A stretch of 28,772 nt of DNA from a virus. How positions within the stretch are numbered: position 1 is the stretch's first letter; each line of letters opens with the position of its first letter. Made by a program: the position numbers and the translations under genes. The notes beneath the pieces are model-generated. The model had not been told where the DNA came from. It saw nothing but the letters and a program-made list of their open reading frames with translations, and searched no databases. The stretch covers positions 1 through 28,772 of IMG/VR virus record IMGVR_UViG_3300021068_000476. One strand, given 5' to 3'. Of the stretch, positions 269 to 10,678 are shown piece by piece.

Positions 269-745
269 ATGACTTTTCAGTATGAGTATGAAAAGTTTAT
301 TGACACTTATAGTACTGTAGAACAAAAAGATATATCGTTTATGATATGGTTGATAGAGAATCCAAAATCACCATTTCATCTACACGGTTCGGCATCTTTA
401 AAAGATCATGATGCTATACATGTATTACTAGAATGCGGTCAGTCAAACGATGAAGAAGCATTTGTTATTGGTTTTACAATGGGTACTGACGACAGAATTA
501 AACCATGGGAAGTAAAGATCTTTAAATTTATTTCACGCTTCTTATATCCAAAAAAGAATAGATTTACTAAAGCACAAATAGAAATATTTGATATTGGTTT
601 TAAATATGGCAGTTCAAGAAATACTAATCGTATAGGCGAAGTTGACTGGACGAAGTATAATTTAGATGTTCCACTAAAAGAAATCCAATTAGGATTTGGA
701 ATTATGGACAACGAATTAAGTTACCTTAAGCGAGATATCAAATGA
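269..745 (+). CDS. Coq4-like protein (ubiquinone biosynthesis family)
   Basis: This 158-residue protein carries a DHDAIH stretch at 46-51 and E63, which fits the Coq4 signature HDxxH-x11-E. A following 'GFTMG' segment resembles the hydrophobic helix after the motif in Coq4. Coq4 is needed for ubiquinone biosynthesis at the modification of ring carbon C1, and binds a divalent metal through this motif. The protein is shorter than typical Coq4 (about 220-260 residues), so it is a reduced version. Its stop overlaps the start of the proline dehydrogenase gene by 4 nt, which implies translational coupling. Proline dehydrogenase passes electrons to quinone, so the pairing makes metabolic sense. Assignment rests on the motif and context only. 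Confidence 0.6.
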   Translation: MTFQYEYEKFIDTYSTVEQKDISFMIWLIENPKSPFHLHGSASLKDHDAIHVLLECGQSNDEEAFVIGFTMGTDDRIKPWEVKIFKFISRFLYPKKNRFTKAQIEIFDIGFKYGSSRNTNRIGEVDWTKYNLDVPLKEIQLGFGIMDNELSYLKRDIK

Positions 746-1587
746 AACTATTATATCCGTTAGCTAAAAGATTTATAGCAGGACATAATGTAGAGTCTAT
801 GTTAAGTAATATTAGACAATACGATCTTGTTACGATTAATTATGTAGGCGAAAGTGCTACTGCACCTTGTATAGCTCAAGCTAACTTACAAAAATACTTG
901 TATCTAATTTACAAGTTAAAGTCAGTATTGTTTAGAGAATACGAAATATCAATTAAATTAAGCCAATTTGGTAATGCACCATACTTATGGAAAGAGCCTG
1001 TAGAAACAATAATTGATGCAATAAAAGATACTCCAAAAATTAAAATTAAATTTGATATGGAAAAGGAATCAACTATTGACGATACATTAAAGTTTTCCCG
1101 TTGTTTTAATGATATAGGTATTGTATTACAAGCTAATATGCAACGTTCGGGTACTGATATGGAAAAGGCTATGGAGAGTTATACTAGAGTTAGACTTTGT
1201 AAAGGAGCATACAAAGGTGATATCAGAAACATGAAGGATATCAGAAAAAATTATCTAAATATAGTAGAAGATATTTTCAAAAGCGGATATTTTTATCATA
1301 AAGATTATAAGCAAGAACTTGTATCTTTAGGGACACACGATGAGTATCTTATTGAAAATATAAAGAAGTTGTCCCAACAATACGGTGGCAAACAAAAGTT
1401 CTATTTCGAAATGCTTTTTGGCATTAGAAGGGACTTAGCAAAAAGATTAATCGGCGAAGGATACTCAGTAAGAACTTATATACCATATGGTGCAGATTGG
1501 ATACCTTATGTAATACGTAGATTATCGGAGTTTAAGAATCTTAAATTTGTTGGTGTAAATATTATAAAAGAACTTTTTTCAAGGTAA
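742..1587 (+). CDS. proline dehydrogenase (PRODH family)
   Basis: This 281-residue protein has the conserved landmarks of monofunctional PRODH in order: EISIKLSQFG at 68-77, LQANMQRSG near 129-137, RLCKGAY at 151-157, GTHD at 197-200, YFEMLFGIRR at 221-230, and VRTYIPYG...W.PY..RRL at 243-261. In known enzymes the RR pair binds the proline carboxylate. PRODH is an FAD-dependent beta/alpha-barrel enzyme that oxidises proline to pyrroline-5-carboxylate and reduces membrane ubiquinone. The length fits the roughly 300-residue bacterial enzyme; no P5C dehydrogenase domain is fused. It overlaps the Coq4-like gene by 4 nt and is followed 7 nt later by a second amino-acid dehydrogenase. Substrate specificity in the phage enzyme is not proven. 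Confidence 0.8.
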   Translation: MKLLYPLAKRFIAGHNVESMLSNIRQYDLVTINYVGESATAPCIAQANLQKYLYLIYKLKSVLFREYEISIKLSQFGNAPYLWKEPVETIIDAIKDTPKIKIKFDMEKESTIDDTLKFSRCFNDIGIVLQANMQRSGTDMEKAMESYTRVRLCKGAYKGDIRNMKDIRKNYLNIVEDIFKSGYFYHKDYKQELVSLGTHDEYLIENIKKLSQQYGGKQKFYFEMLFGIRRDLAKRLIGEGYSVRTYIPYGADWIPYVIRRLSEFKNLKFVGVNIIKELFSR

Positions 1588-1594
1588 GTACAAC

Positions 1595-2680
1595 ATGACT
1601 AAAATTATTATATTTGGTGGCGGATCTATAGGTAATGCAGTATATCATCTTTTAAAAGATCGTACAGCATACAGCATTACAGTAGCTGACATACGTGGTT
1701 CTGTTACGGGTATCCCGTCAGAAGATTATGCACAAATAGATACTAGGCATCCTGGTACTAACAGTTGGACAATTGATAAATTAATAAAGGATAAAACATT
1801 AGTTATTAATGCATTACCATATACTGAAAATATGATTATATATAATGCATGTTTAAAAGCAAACATTCCATACTTTGATTTCTCAGAAGATTCAGAACTT
1901 AATGACTTTATCCATAATATTGATTTAGAAAAGCCATTACCATTTACGATGCCACATTGTGGATTAGCACCAGGTATGAGTACAGTTATTGCAAATGACT
2001 TAGCACACGATTATACAAAGGTAGATGAAGTTAAAATAAGAGTAGGAGCATTATCACAGAATGCTACTAACAAATTAAAGTATCACCTTTCTTGGAGTGC
2101 AGACGGATTAATAAATGAATACTGTGGTAATTGTAAAGTTATACGTGATGGGCAGTTAAATGAAGTGCCAACACTTACAGATTACGAAACATTGTTAATA
2201 GATGGTACAGAATACGAAGCATTTAATACAAGTGGTGGATTAGGATCATTTGTAGATACTGTTATTAACGATCCACGTTATTCAGAAGCAAATGTAAATT
2301 ATAAAACTATTAGGCGGGTAGGACATCATGATTATATAGATTTTTTAATGAATGATTTAAAAATACCTAAGAAAGATTTAATTAATATTATTAAACATGG
2401 AGTGTCTAGTACAAAACAAGATTGTGTTATTATCTTTATTACAGTTAGTGGTATAGTTAATAGCAATCATACAGAACGCATATATAAGAAAATATTCTAT
2501 CCTGAAAAGTTAAATGGTAGATTGTTTACAGCTATCGAGTTAACAACAGCGTCAGGACTACTTACAATGGTTGAACTATTTTTACAGAATAAACTTAGTG
2601 ACTATGGTTACCATAAACAAGAGGAAGTTAAACTTTCAGAAGCAGTTAGTACAAAGTTTGGAAGTTTATATACGATGTAA
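1595..2680 (+). CDS. saccharopine dehydrogenase-like / L-lysine dehydrogenase-type enzyme
   Basis: This 361-residue protein begins with a Rossmann NAD(P)-binding segment, IIIFGGGSIGNAVYHLL at 4-20. It continues with PHCGLAPGMST at 120-130, SADGLINEY at 168-176 and YEAFNTSGGLGS at 207-218. These are hallmarks of the saccharopine dehydrogenase / lysine 6-dehydrogenase / carboxynorspermidine dehydrogenase superfamily. The length fits the single-domain lysine dehydrogenase type. If it acts on lysine, the product 2-aminoadipate semialdehyde cyclises to piperideine-6-carboxylate, a one-carbon homologue of the neighbouring PRODH product. The exact substrate cannot be read from sequence. It is the last large gene of the cassette; its stop overlaps the next small gene by 1 nt. 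Confidence 0.75.
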   Translation: MTKIIIFGGGSIGNAVYHLLKDRTAYSITVADIRGSVTGIPSEDYAQIDTRHPGTNSWTIDKLIKDKTLVINALPYTENMIIYNACLKANIPYFDFSEDSELNDFIHNIDLEKPLPFTMPHCGLAPGMSTVIANDLAHDYTKVDEVKIRVGALSQNATNKLKYHLSWSADGLINEYCGNCKVIRDGQLNEVPTLTDYETLLIDGTEYEAFNTSGGLGSFVDTVINDPRYSEANVNYKTIRRVGHHDYIDFLMNDLKIPKKDLINIIKHGVSSTKQDCVIIFITVSGIVNSNHTERIYKKIFYPEKLNGRLFTAIELTTASGLLTMVELFLQNKLSDYGYHKQEEVKLSEAVSTKFGSLYTM

Positions 2681-5084: not shown

Positions 5085-5277
5085 ACATTCTGCTAGATAT
5101 ATAATGAGACAACAAAAGAAGTTAGATAAAAAACTTCGTCGTAAACCTAAAAACATTAATGCTGACGGTGATACTACTATGATGCCTTTACATCAGACAA
5201 TCACATTAGATCATCTTACTAAACCAAAAGTGGCTCCGGGGGAAGGATTCGAACCTTCACGCTCTCCCAAGCAGTAG
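5077..5277 (+). CDS. small basic protein, 3' end antisense to a tRNA
   Basis: ATG 5077 overlaps the preceding stop; an in-frame GTG at 5074 is less likely. The first 40 residues are very basic (many K and R), suggesting nucleic-acid binding. The last 15 or so codons run antisense through the tRNA gene, so the C-terminus is simply the tRNA read backwards. Either the protein tolerates this tail or the original end was lost when the tRNA was placed here. Function unknown. Confidence 0.5.
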   Translation: MAKHSARYIMRQQKKLDKKLRRKPKNINADGDTTMMPLHQTITLDHLTKPKVAPGEGFEPSRSPKQ

Positions 5278-5317
5278 ATAAACAGTCTACCATGTCTACC
5301 AATTCCATCACCCCGGA
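5231..5317 (-). tRNA. type II (long variable arm) tRNA with anticodon GUU
   Basis: Read on the minus strand, the 87 bases fold as a full cloverleaf. The acceptor stem TCCGGGG pairs perfectly with CCCCGGA, followed by discriminator G and an encoded CCA. The D arm is ATG/CAT with a GG pair in the loop. The anticodon stem GTAGA/TCTAC encloses loop CTGTTTA, and the T arm is GAAGG/CCTTC around TTCGAAT. The variable arm is about 15 nt with a GCT/AGC stem, as in Leu, Ser and some Tyr tRNAs. The D arm (TGGAATTGGTAGACA) is strongly Leu-like, yet the anticodon is GUU (Asn codons), position 37 is U rather than a purine, and the discriminator is G. It lies 6 nt after the synthetase-like gene and is probably processed from the same transcript. 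Confidence 0.85.
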
Positions 5318-5323
5318 ACAAAC

Positions 5324-6247
5324 TTATTGCTCTATACCATGCATGTTTGAAAAACTACGTTTAAAGTTTTTGCTTCCTACACGATATGTTGTTGCTCTAC
5401 CTCTTTTAATACTTGGAGGAGTAATCTTCTTATATTCCTCAACAGCACGTATCATTCTAGTCATTCCAATTCCCCCTCCTACTCTAGGTTGAAAATCGTA
5501 ACTTAAGAATTCATTTAGTTCTGCTTCTACTCGTTCCTTACCAAACTGTCCGTATAGCAAGTCAGCATACTGTCCGTCACTAATAGTGTGGAACATGTGC
5601 TTCATTTCTTCCGGATCGCTACTACGTTCAGCTGAGCCTATTGTTTCCTGTCCAGCTATAATAACATCGATCTTAGCCGCAGTTCCGTCACCGTTTTGTT
5701 TCATGTTCCAGAAAGGACTAGTATAGTTTGGAAAGTTCTTAATCATACACACACGATCTTTATACTTGTCGTACATTGATTCTTCATCTTTGTGTGTTAA
5801 TTCTTTAGTATCAAAATCCTTAGCCCATTCCAAGTAGTCTTTAACTACAGGGTTTGAACCAAAGCCCATGTGTTCTGTAAGCTCTTTATTCATAATTTCA
5901 AGGTCTGCAACAGTTCCCGGAAATTCAAATTCAAACATTGGAAATATTAAATCATGGCGGCCTGGAACCGGGTTAGGTTCTTGTCTATAGGATGTTGAGA
6001 CACAAAAAAAGCCCTTCGATGAAGGGCGTGTAAGCAGTTCGTATTCTAGCCACATCTGGCCTGTTTGCGGTAGCGGCCAAACATTGCCGGCATAGTTGTA
6101 TGTACTTACTGTAGTTGGATCTTCACATGCGGCAAGTATGCTTAATCTATTTTGTGTATGGACTTCGTGAAAGCCTCGGTCCAAAAAAAACGACCTTAAA
6201 AGGCCGACGGTACTTGTATATTGTTCTGGATTTATTAACTGGGTCAT
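5324..6247 (-). CDS. class II aminoacyl-tRNA synthetase-like core (Asp/Asn type)
   Basis: The 307-residue protein is a class II synthetase catalytic core. A motif 1-like helix lies near residues 13-30. Motif 2 is SYRQEPNPVPGRHDL (86-100; R88 and E90 typical for ATP binding), with FEFEF after it. KIDVIIAGQETIGSAER at 192-208 matches the Asp/Asn signature region, and motif 3 is GGGIGMTRM at 257-265 with R264. There is no N-terminal OB-fold anticodon-binding domain, unlike AspRS, AsnRS or LysRS. It could be a dedicated synthetase for the tRNA 6 nt downstream, or an asparagine synthetase of the AsnA or archaeal AsnRS-related type, which also lack that domain. The start overlaps the upstream 91-codon gene by 4 nt (ATGA). 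Confidence 0.75.
   Translation of the reverse strand: MTQLINPEQYTSTVGLLRSFFLDRGFHEVHTQNRLSILAACEDPTTVSTYNYAGNVWPLPQTGQMWLEYELLTRPSSKGFFCVSTSYRQEPNPVPGRHDLIFPMFEFEFPGTVADLEIMNKELTEHMGFGSNPVVKDYLEWAKDFDTKELTHKDEESMYDKYKDRVCMIKNFPNYTSPFWNMKQNGDGTAAKIDVIIAGQETIGSAERSSDPEEMKHMFHTISDGQYADLLYGQFGKERVEAELNEFLSYDFQPRVGGGIGMTRMIRAVEEYKKITPPSIKRGRATTYRVGSKNFKRSFSNMHGIEQ
6004..6027 (-). terminator. intrinsic-terminator hairpin inside the synthetase-like gene
   Basis: On the minus strand GCCCTTC-ATC-GAAGGGC forms a perfect 7-bp GC-rich stem with a 3-nt loop, directly followed by seven T. This is a canonical Rho-independent terminator, yet it lies near codons 74-82 of an open reading frame in the same direction. 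Whether it acts will depend on ribosome occupancy. Confidence 0.6.
6183..6206 (-). terminator. second intrinsic-terminator-like hairpin inside the synthetase-like gene
   Basis: On the minus strand CGGCC-TTTTAA-GGTCG gives a 5-bp stem with one G-U pair, possibly extended by A-T pairs, followed by eight T. It lies around codons 14-22 of the synthetase-like frame. It is weaker than the hairpin at 6004-6027 but has the longer U tract. Confidence 0.45.
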
Positions 6248-9691: not shown

Positions 9692-10678
9692 TTAATTATT
9701 ATACCACATTTCAGGATGAAAGTCAATATGTTTTTTGCTCATTGCCAAAACTGCTCCTACACACGATCCTGGGTCGCCTGGGTTTGGCGGTATATAAACA
9801 TTATCCCAATCGTTTCTTATTAAGTCAACTGCTTGTTTATTTAATGCACAACCTCCTGTAATAATAAGATTGCGGCTTGGTAAATGTTTTAAACACCATT
9901 TACTATTTGATTTCATTATTAATTCAAAAACAAATTGAGTTGCATTAGCAAGTCTTGCCATATCCATATCTGATTTTAATTCAGGCTTATACCAATCACA
10001 CCCTTTATGCATATTAACTTTAAAGTCTACGCCTGGTATATCTCCATTTAATTTACCATCAATGAAAGTGCTTATCATATTGTTTACTAGTTCTAAATTT
10101 TCATGAGTAGCAATAGGAGCCCCTAACTCTGCAACTTTGTATTCATCTCTATTTGCTTTAAAGCCTAGTCGTTGTGTCATAGCAGAATAAAATAAACCAA
10201 CACTATGTGGATACTTTTGTGAATAAACTTTCTTAAGTCTACAACCTCTACCTGCCCATATAGTAAGTGTTTCAAATTCACCTATACTATCTAAAACTAA
10301 TATAGTTGCATCATTAAGTTTACTAGTATACCAGCCGTATGCGGCATGACTTTTGTGATGTTTTGCAAATTTAATGGGGCAAGTAATACCCCATTGTTTT
10401 AAATACTTTGGAATATTGTTTTCACGAAAAGAACTCCAACCTTGTCCTGCCCAAACTTGTCTAATACTTTTAAGGTGAGGAATTTCATACCATATAACTT
10501 CATCAGGTTCTCGCCACCCGCCGGCTTGTTTTGCGGCATTAACAAGTTCAGGATTTAAATGAGGATCGTTATCTACCTTAGAAAAGTCTTTAGCCAAGGC
10601 CGCCCATACTAGTTCTTTATCGTTAAAAACTGCTATACTGGCATCATGACTATTTCCAACAATTCCCCAAGTAATCAT
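9692..10678 (-). CDS. carbamoyltransferase, N-terminal domain only (NodU/CmcH/TobZ family)
   Basis: The 328-residue protein matches the Kae1-like ASKHA-fold domain of O-carbamoyltransferases: WGIVGNSHDAS at 4-14, KHHKSHAAYGWY at 106-117 with the metal-binding HxxxH, VLDSIGEFET at 128-137, and ITGGCALN...PPNPGDPGSCVGAVLA near the C-terminus. Family members are usually about 550-600 residues with a second C-terminal domain that is absent here. Related genes are known in marine T4-like phages. The substrate could be a modified nucleotide or a sugar; sequence cannot tell. Its ATG overlaps the ClpP stop by 1 nt, with GAGGAG about 12 nt upstream. Confidence 0.8.
   Translation of the reverse strand: MITWGIVGNSHDASIAVFNDKELVWAALAKDFSKVDNDPHLNPELVNAAKQAGGWREPDEVIWYEIPHLKSIRQVWAGQGWSSFRENNIPKYLKQWGITCPIKFAKHHKSHAAYGWYTSKLNDATILVLDSIGEFETLTIWAGRGCRLKKVYSQKYPHSVGLFYSAMTQRLGFKANRDEYKVAELGAPIATHENLELVNNMISTFIDGKLNGDIPGVDFKVNMHKGCDWYKPELKSDMDMARLANATQFVFELIMKSNSKWCLKHLPSRNLIITGGCALNKQAVDLIRNDWDNVYIPPNPGDPGSCVGAVLAMSKKHIDFHPEMWYNN
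9698..9726 (-). promoter_or_regulatory. consensus sigma70 promoter before the gp41 helicase
   Basis: TTGACT (9726-9721), a 17-nt spacer, then TATAAT (9703-9698). Only six bases (AATTAA) separate the -10 box from ATG, so +1 would be the A of the start codon. The promoter lies wholly within the last codons of the carbamoyltransferase gene. No Shine-Dalgarno precedes the ATG. Confidence 0.75.

Follow-up and report, generated by a model that had tools for sequence, protein, structure and literature searches.

A synthetase-like enzyme of marine phages is paired with an unusual asparagine-type tRNA and belongs to a cellular family tied to pyrimidine genes

A class II synthetase core beside an unusual tRNA

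The window, by which we mean the whole stretch of DNA analysed here, is a virus fragment from IMG/VR, 28,772 bases long. Its sole tRNA (ARAGORN; anticodon GUU) lies behind an open reading frame encoding 307 amino acids, with the gene upstream on the same strand (Table 1). An earlier note made from the sequence had described a tRNA whose D arm is Leu-like and whose variable arm is 15 nt long, with anticodon GUU, U37 and a G discriminator, placed 6 nt from a class II core that has no anticodon-binding domain. Both parts of this description held: ARAGORN and the Rfam tRNA model (RF00005; 49.7 bits, E = 2.8e-9) recognized the tRNA, and Pfam matched the protein to PF00152, the class II D/K/N core, alone (6.6e-15, residues 14–275). 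The tRNA reads UCCGGGG, D arm, GUAGA, CUGUUUA, UCUAC, the 15-nt arm, T arm, CCCCGGA, G and an encoded CCA, with C32 U33 G34 U35 U36 U37 A38 in the anticodon loop and G at position 73.

Table 1 Features of the enzyme–tRNA locus, in window coordinates
Feature	Position	Strand	Basis or remark
Class II synthetase-like core gene (phrog_29758), 307 aa	5324..6247	-	stop codon 5324-5326
T62-E68 'TGQMWLE', counterpart of AsnRS 'SSQLYLE' in the amino-acid pocket	6044..6064	-	alignment; (nearly) invariant in phage and cell members
Class II motif 2 (S84-E108, R88/E90/R97/H98)	5924..5998	-	conservation; aligned with AsnRS
E201-R208 'ETIGSAER', counterpart of AsnRS 'EIIGGSQR' (Arg at Asx side-chain site)	5624..5647	-	conservation; profile alignment
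Class II motif 3 (G257-R264 'GGGIGMTR')	5456..5479	-	conservation; profile alignment
6-nt spacer, stop codon to tRNA	5318..5323	-	relatives mostly 4-12 nt; -5 (overlap) in three loci
Special type II tRNA, U1-A72, G73, encoded CCA (5231-5233)	5231..5317	-	ARAGORN, Rfam, covariation
Anticodon-loop U33 G34 U35 U36 U37	5280..5284	-	GUUU = conserved string; position 33 variable in relatives
15-nt variable arm	5259..5273	-	sequence

The protein also matches phrog_29758, a family of unknown function (3e-121). NCBIfam returned weak partial matches to AspRS, AsnRS, LysRS and asparagine synthetase models, falling short of the curated cut-offs for AsnRS (21.5 bits against 414 for PRK03932.1; 19.9 against 342.6 for asnS) and for asparagine synthetase A (PRK06462; 23.7 against 389), and no Pfam match to AsnA was obtained. 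An AF2 model (mean pLDDT 90.4) shows a class II core and nothing more than a C-terminal tail of low confidence; in neither the model nor the Pfam match is there an N-terminal OB-fold anticodon-binding domain. Motifs 2 and 3 are both present, R88/E90 being invariant and G257–R264 conserved. The best fold matches in the PDB are AsnRS structures, several of them with asparaginyl-adenylate or analogues, followed by AspRS and LysRS, and profile comparison with hhalign gave probabilities of 76% for AsnS, 8% for AspS and 3% for Escherichia coli AsnA. The two pocket strings also align with their AsnRS counterparts. Judged by sequence and model, the protein is an AsnRS-type catalytic core that has no OB-fold, and its AsnRS-like fold and pocket strings make an asparagine-like substrate likely.

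The enzyme gene and the tRNA are linked across marine phages

A scan of IMG/VR recovered at least 591 relatives, and further scans added a P-SSM7-like group; with the LR756508 protein as query, no relatives came up. Of the enzyme loci, 159 have 130 nt or more of sequence downstream, and the special tRNA is present at 138 of these; it was found in all 73 P-SSM7-like loci and in 63 of 79 window-like loci, all such counts being of loci, many of them closely related, rather than of independent events. The stop codon and the tRNA are mostly separated by 4–12 nt. Three loci (L005, L007 and L056) have a 5-nt overlap that places the enzyme stop codon within the tRNA acceptor stem, so that a shared transcript is necessary. 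The reverse search of IMG/VR, with two tRNA-only patterns that span only the Leu-like body with U33, found the enzyme gene directly upstream in 143 of 143 testable matches, that is, those with at least 350 nt of upstream sequence.

Cultured Prochlorococcus phages carry the same arrangement: in P-SSM2, P-SSM5 and P-SSM7 the gene is annotated 'tRNA ligase' and a tRNA-Asn lies directly behind it. The records of P-SSM7 and P-SSM5 annotate this tRNA in that place, and in P-SSM2 it is found by sequence 9 nt behind PSSM2_198 (locus L081, 6814–6899). The tRNA-Asn annotation of P-SSM2 (L081 8825–8910; AY939844.2 164094–164179) looks about 2 kb out of place.

Some phages of the same clade have the gene and no special tRNA (L006, 328 kb; L050, 201 kb). 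When tRNA-less phage records were searched for the special tRNA elsewhere, its covariance model returned ordinary tRNAs only, at no more than 71 bits against 92–97. In five phage contigs (L014, L062, L063, L072 and L080) tmRNA genes lie near the enzyme gene.

Gene and tRNA thus recur together in related phages whichever of the two is searched first, and they almost certainly form a dedicated functional pair. That they are incidental neighbours, which was part of the alternative offered in the earlier note, is ruled out by the tRNA-first scan, in which the tRNA was never found apart from the gene.

The tRNA keeps asparagine identity and loses decoding marks

Across 23 relatives, 99.6% of stem cells are paired and double-sided compensatory cells number 126, compared with 34 after shuffling; the covarying stems are accompanied by the tertiary nucleotides U8, D-loop GG, TTC and A58. 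With covariation this overwhelming, the window tRNA is a real tRNA, beyond chance.

Among 98 unique special tRNAs, G73, G34 and U35 occur in all 98 and U1–A72 in 97. At position 36, 95 have U and three have C, giving the anticodon GUU and rarely GUC; the three GUC tRNAs come with no visible pocket change in their enzymes. The anticodon and G73 together specify asparagine identity, and U1–A72 is the mark for amidation of Asp-tRNA-Asn (PMC9976931). All of these marks of a tRNA-Asn are thus present, on a body that departs from the short-loop type I form: the variable arm measures 13–38 nt in 97 of the 98 and 6 nt in L056 only.

The marks of an elongator tRNA are not kept across the family. U33, which shapes the anticodon loop, is found in 69 of 98 (about 70%); position 37, where tRNAs reading A-starting codons have t6A, is U in 92 and a purine in six. 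The window tRNA itself keeps U33 and has U37. As controls we took 33 other unique tRNAs from the same loci; one of these, from L039, proved to be that locus's special tRNA, and the other 32 all have U33 and a purine at position 37. This comparison rules out an ordinary decoding tRNA-Asn as the full account. With position 33 variable and U at 37, the special tRNA looks chargeable yet ill-suited to decoding.

The next-best matches of the special-tRNA covariance model are ordinary tRNA-Leu genes, which marks the body as Leu-like. A second body, which differs in its D arm and has a variable arm of 26–28 nt, occupies the same slot behind the same gene in L018–L020, L024, L030, L052, L057, L058 and L070, in some cases with anticodon GUC. 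Two bodies in one slot indicate that the long arm and the identity marks were kept while the body was exchanged. The special tRNA thus retains Asn/Asp identity on a long-arm body and has lost its decoding marks; from these sequence features, its role is probably not mainly decoding.

The phage clade is nested in a cellular family

A scan with the family alignment, covering a single genome for each species, located 125 places encoding relatives. Most belong to a cellular family with 50–63% identity, found in Patescibacteria, Bacteroidota, Pseudomonadota, Myxococcota, Dependentiae and others. Eight others (L172–L176, L178, L227 and L242) are likely phage contigs binned into metagenome-assembled genomes (MAGs) labelled Pacearchaeota, Thaumarchaeota, Chloroflexi and others, which calls for caution in gene surveys of MAGs.

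In a tree of 97 proteins the marine phage clade (support 97/98) is nested within the cellular family, as sister to a Pasteurella atlantica/Rhodospirillaceae/Midichloriaceae group (97/92), and the active-site columns are common to phage and cellular members. The presence of the tRNA requires six changes on this unrooted tree, and a single gain at the origin of the phage clade followed by several losses would fit its distribution. No special tRNA lies beside the cellular genes, and none was among the candidates scored in 32 cellular genomes with a homolog, where the best matches fetched were tRNA-Leu. The cellular relatives coexist with AsnRS or AspRS. AsnRS exceeds its cut-off in 13 of these 32 genomes and AsnB in 21, so the homolog would be superfluous as either enzyme in many of them.

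The cellular family is tied to pyrimidine genes

Neighbours of the cellular genes include genes for orotidine monophosphate (OMP) decarboxylase, an orotate phosphoribosyltransferase-like protein and dihydroorotate dehydrogenase, confirmed with Pfam in examples; of 72 cellular loci, 26, spread over several phyla, encode PyrD, PyrE or PyrF no more than about 4 kb away. Among the 32 genomes with a homolog, aspartate transcarbamylase (ATCase, PyrB) exceeded its cut-off in one, CarB in three and PyrC (TIGR00857) in one; OMP decarboxylase (PyrF) was found in 28 and the dihydroorotate dehydrogenase family (PyrD) in 21. All 14 controls were positive in every pyrimidine-enzyme search. Gaps in MAGs would affect all of these genes alike.

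Pasteurella atlantica, the record of which is titled a complete genome, encodes PyrD, the homolog, PyrF and PyrE in one cluster; searches of this genome gave no PyrC match, only a sub-cut-off match for ATCase and no CarB over cut-off. Of 120 Saprospiraceae genomes, 106 have PyrB over cut-off: none of the three with the homolog against 106 of the 117 others (hypergeometric, 0.0013). Several Bacteroidota genomes contain sub-cut-off dihydroorotase-like matches (200–261 bits), which makes the absence of PyrC less certain there, and PyrC may persist. In the phages, no pyr operon or link to pyrD/E/F was seen.

A distribution complementary to that of PyrB and a genomic link to pyrD/E/F in cells are what a replacement for CarAB, PyrB and PyrC would display. 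On this genomic evidence the cellular family quite likely makes dihydroorotate or its precursor. Since phage and cellular enzymes have a common active site, we assume the same reaction in phages, and it is somewhat probable that the phage enzyme also makes one of these products.

A possible route from asparagine to dihydroorotate

We tentatively propose, at slightly less than an even chance, that the protein is a metabolic enzyme making dihydroorotate, probably from asparagine, and that in phages it is coupled to a non-decoding tRNA carrying asparagine. The stripped AsnRS-type core would bind an asparagine-like substrate and ATP. In cells it would replace CarAB, PyrB and PyrC in one step and hand dihydroorotate to PyrD. 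The atoms fit a reaction of asparagine, bicarbonate and ATP, as asparagine plus CO2 minus water gives exactly the atoms of dihydroorotate; the AsnRS-like pocket, beside ATP, may activate a carbamate of asparagine, and the ring would be closed by the side-chain amide.

An ancestor of the marine phages would have captured the cellular gene, which may then have been joined once to a tRNA combining a tRNA-Leu-like body with the acceptor end (U1–A72, G73) and anticodon (GUU, rarely GUC) of tRNA-Asn/Asp. These are the features that a host relies on to charge tRNA-Asn, either with AsnRS directly or by way of a non-discriminating AspRS with GatCAB. Host enzymes could charge the phage tRNA too; the second route is compatible with both GUU and the rare GUC. 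Because U33 and purine-37 are lost, the ribosome would use the tRNA poorly and its asparagine would be reserved for the phage enzyme, which would take it from the charged tRNA and feed pyrimidine synthesis for phage DNA. We hold this donor role, drawn from the sequences of tRNA and enzyme, as tentatively as the proposed reaction, at not quite even confidence. The retention of U33 in about 70% of the tRNAs weighs against a non-decoding donor scheme, as do the phages and cells that have only the gene: some phages of the same clade and all cells examined lack the special tRNA, so it is not always needed.

A bolder form, which we think unlikely, places pyrimidine synthesis on the tRNA itself. By analogy with glutamyl-tRNA feeding haem synthesis, the asparagine ester (or aspartate amidated on the tRNA) on a non-decoding tRNA would be the direct substrate, its ring would be closed with bicarbonate and ATP, and dihydroorotate would be released; cells would use their own tRNA-Asn, and marine phages a private tRNA beyond ribosomal competition.

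A translational account would make the protein a minimal AsnRS that charges its own tRNA-Asn. Working as an orthogonal pair, the two would provide Asn-tRNA for phage translation, for instance at times when the host tRNA-Asn has been degraded or runs short. The earlier note had pictured such a phage-specific charging system, and the dedicated pair at its centre stands, with strict linkage (143/143) and an Asn-type acceptor end and anticodon. The AsnRS-like fold and pocket, the complete Asn identity set and U33 in 69 of 98 tRNAs also speak for it. The use in translation is what has been weakened: position 33 varies and U37 takes the place of the purine that would bear t6A, whereas both marks persist in the 32 ordinary tRNAs taken from these loci; the closest cellular relatives have the same active-site residues and no such tRNA, coexist with AsnRS or AspRS and adjoin pyrimidine genes in genomes largely without CarAB, PyrB and PyrC; and GUC appears in three tRNAs without visible change in the pocket. 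We therefore regard a minimal AsnRS as improbable, and a translation-only reading as less likely than a metabolic one.

It is also rather improbable that a pyrimidine enzyme acts on free asparagine with the tRNA as a co-transcribed accessory, such as one that decoys or senses host tRNA nucleases or the level of Asn-tRNA, or an element behind the gene for processing and stability. Phages and cells that have the gene and no tRNA would fit this arrangement, as would the common transcript implied by the three 5-nt overlaps. A mere processing element, however, needs no near-invariant G34, U35, G73 and U1–A72 on two bodies, nor would it be absent wherever the gene is absent. An asparagine synthetase of the AsnA or archaeal AsnRS-related type with an incidental tRNA link, the alternative of the earlier note, is very improbable: the weak partial PRK06462 match favours it, but AsnA identity was rejected on the hhalign comparison (3% against 76% for AsnS) and on AsnB in 21 of 32 genomes with the homolog, and the tRNA link is not incidental.

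Relation to known systems

The proposed dihydroorotate-forming enzyme and its tRNA resemble several known systems in part. With AsnRS (TIGR00457; PF00152 core) the phage enzyme has in common the class II core fold, the best PDB matches, motifs 2 and 3 and the SSQLYLE-like and EIIGGSQR-like strings; it differs in having no N-terminal OB-fold, in its score far under the AsnRS cut-off, and in cellular relatives that occur alongside AsnRS or AspRS and whose genes cluster with those for pyrimidines. Stand-alone class II cores in metabolic rather than translational use are also seen in AsnA and in archaeal asparagine synthetases related to AsnRS, but these are distant in sequence, most genomes with the homolog already have AsnB, and the family here is linked to pyrimidine genes and, in the phages, also to a tRNA. 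PylRS/tRNA-Pyl and other dedicated pairs also combine a class II core (in some PylRS without an N-terminal domain) with an unusual tRNA of its own; in the phage tRNA, by contrast, the anticodon is a sense one for Asn/Asp, the variable arm is long and the decoding marks are lost, and nothing suggests an added amino acid. Allo-tRNAs and selC* tRNA-Cys are likewise unusual in their anticodon and in the length of the variable arm, but their acceptor branches are 8/4 or 9/3 and their identity is for SerRS or CysRS (PMC7609411), whereas the phage tRNA is 7/5, has Asn identity and always adjoins one enzyme gene. CarAB, PyrB (ATCase) and PyrC (dihydroorotase), whose genomic place beside pyrD/E/F the cellular homologs hold, have unrelated folds, and a single protein of about 270 residues would do the work of three or four enzymes.

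In the open-access literature we found nothing on the pair, on a phage AsnRS of this kind, on a dihydroorotate shortcut or on ATCase-less pyrimidine synthesis. The pair matches no described kind, and the predicted pathway would also be new. Many ocean bacteriophages carry this enzyme gene tied to its own odd tRNA, and phrog_29758, listed as of unknown function and annotated 'tRNA ligase' in the cultured phages, gains a testable role. If the cellular part is true, bacteria of many phyla, including Aureispira and the Pasteurella with a complete genome, would use an undescribed one-enzyme shortcut in a universal pathway; if the phage part is true, some common ocean phages would carry a tRNA that supplies metabolism rather than translation. 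Should only the pairing hold, it would be a natural tRNA–enzyme couple that may be orthogonal to host systems.

Elsewhere in the window, a proline dehydrogenase-like gene is followed by a saccharopine dehydrogenase-like gene (742–2680, plus strand), a metabolic pair unusual for a phage, and positions 9695–10678 (minus strand) encode the N-terminal domain of a NodU/TobZ-type carbamoyltransferase, a family that uses carbamoyl phosphate.
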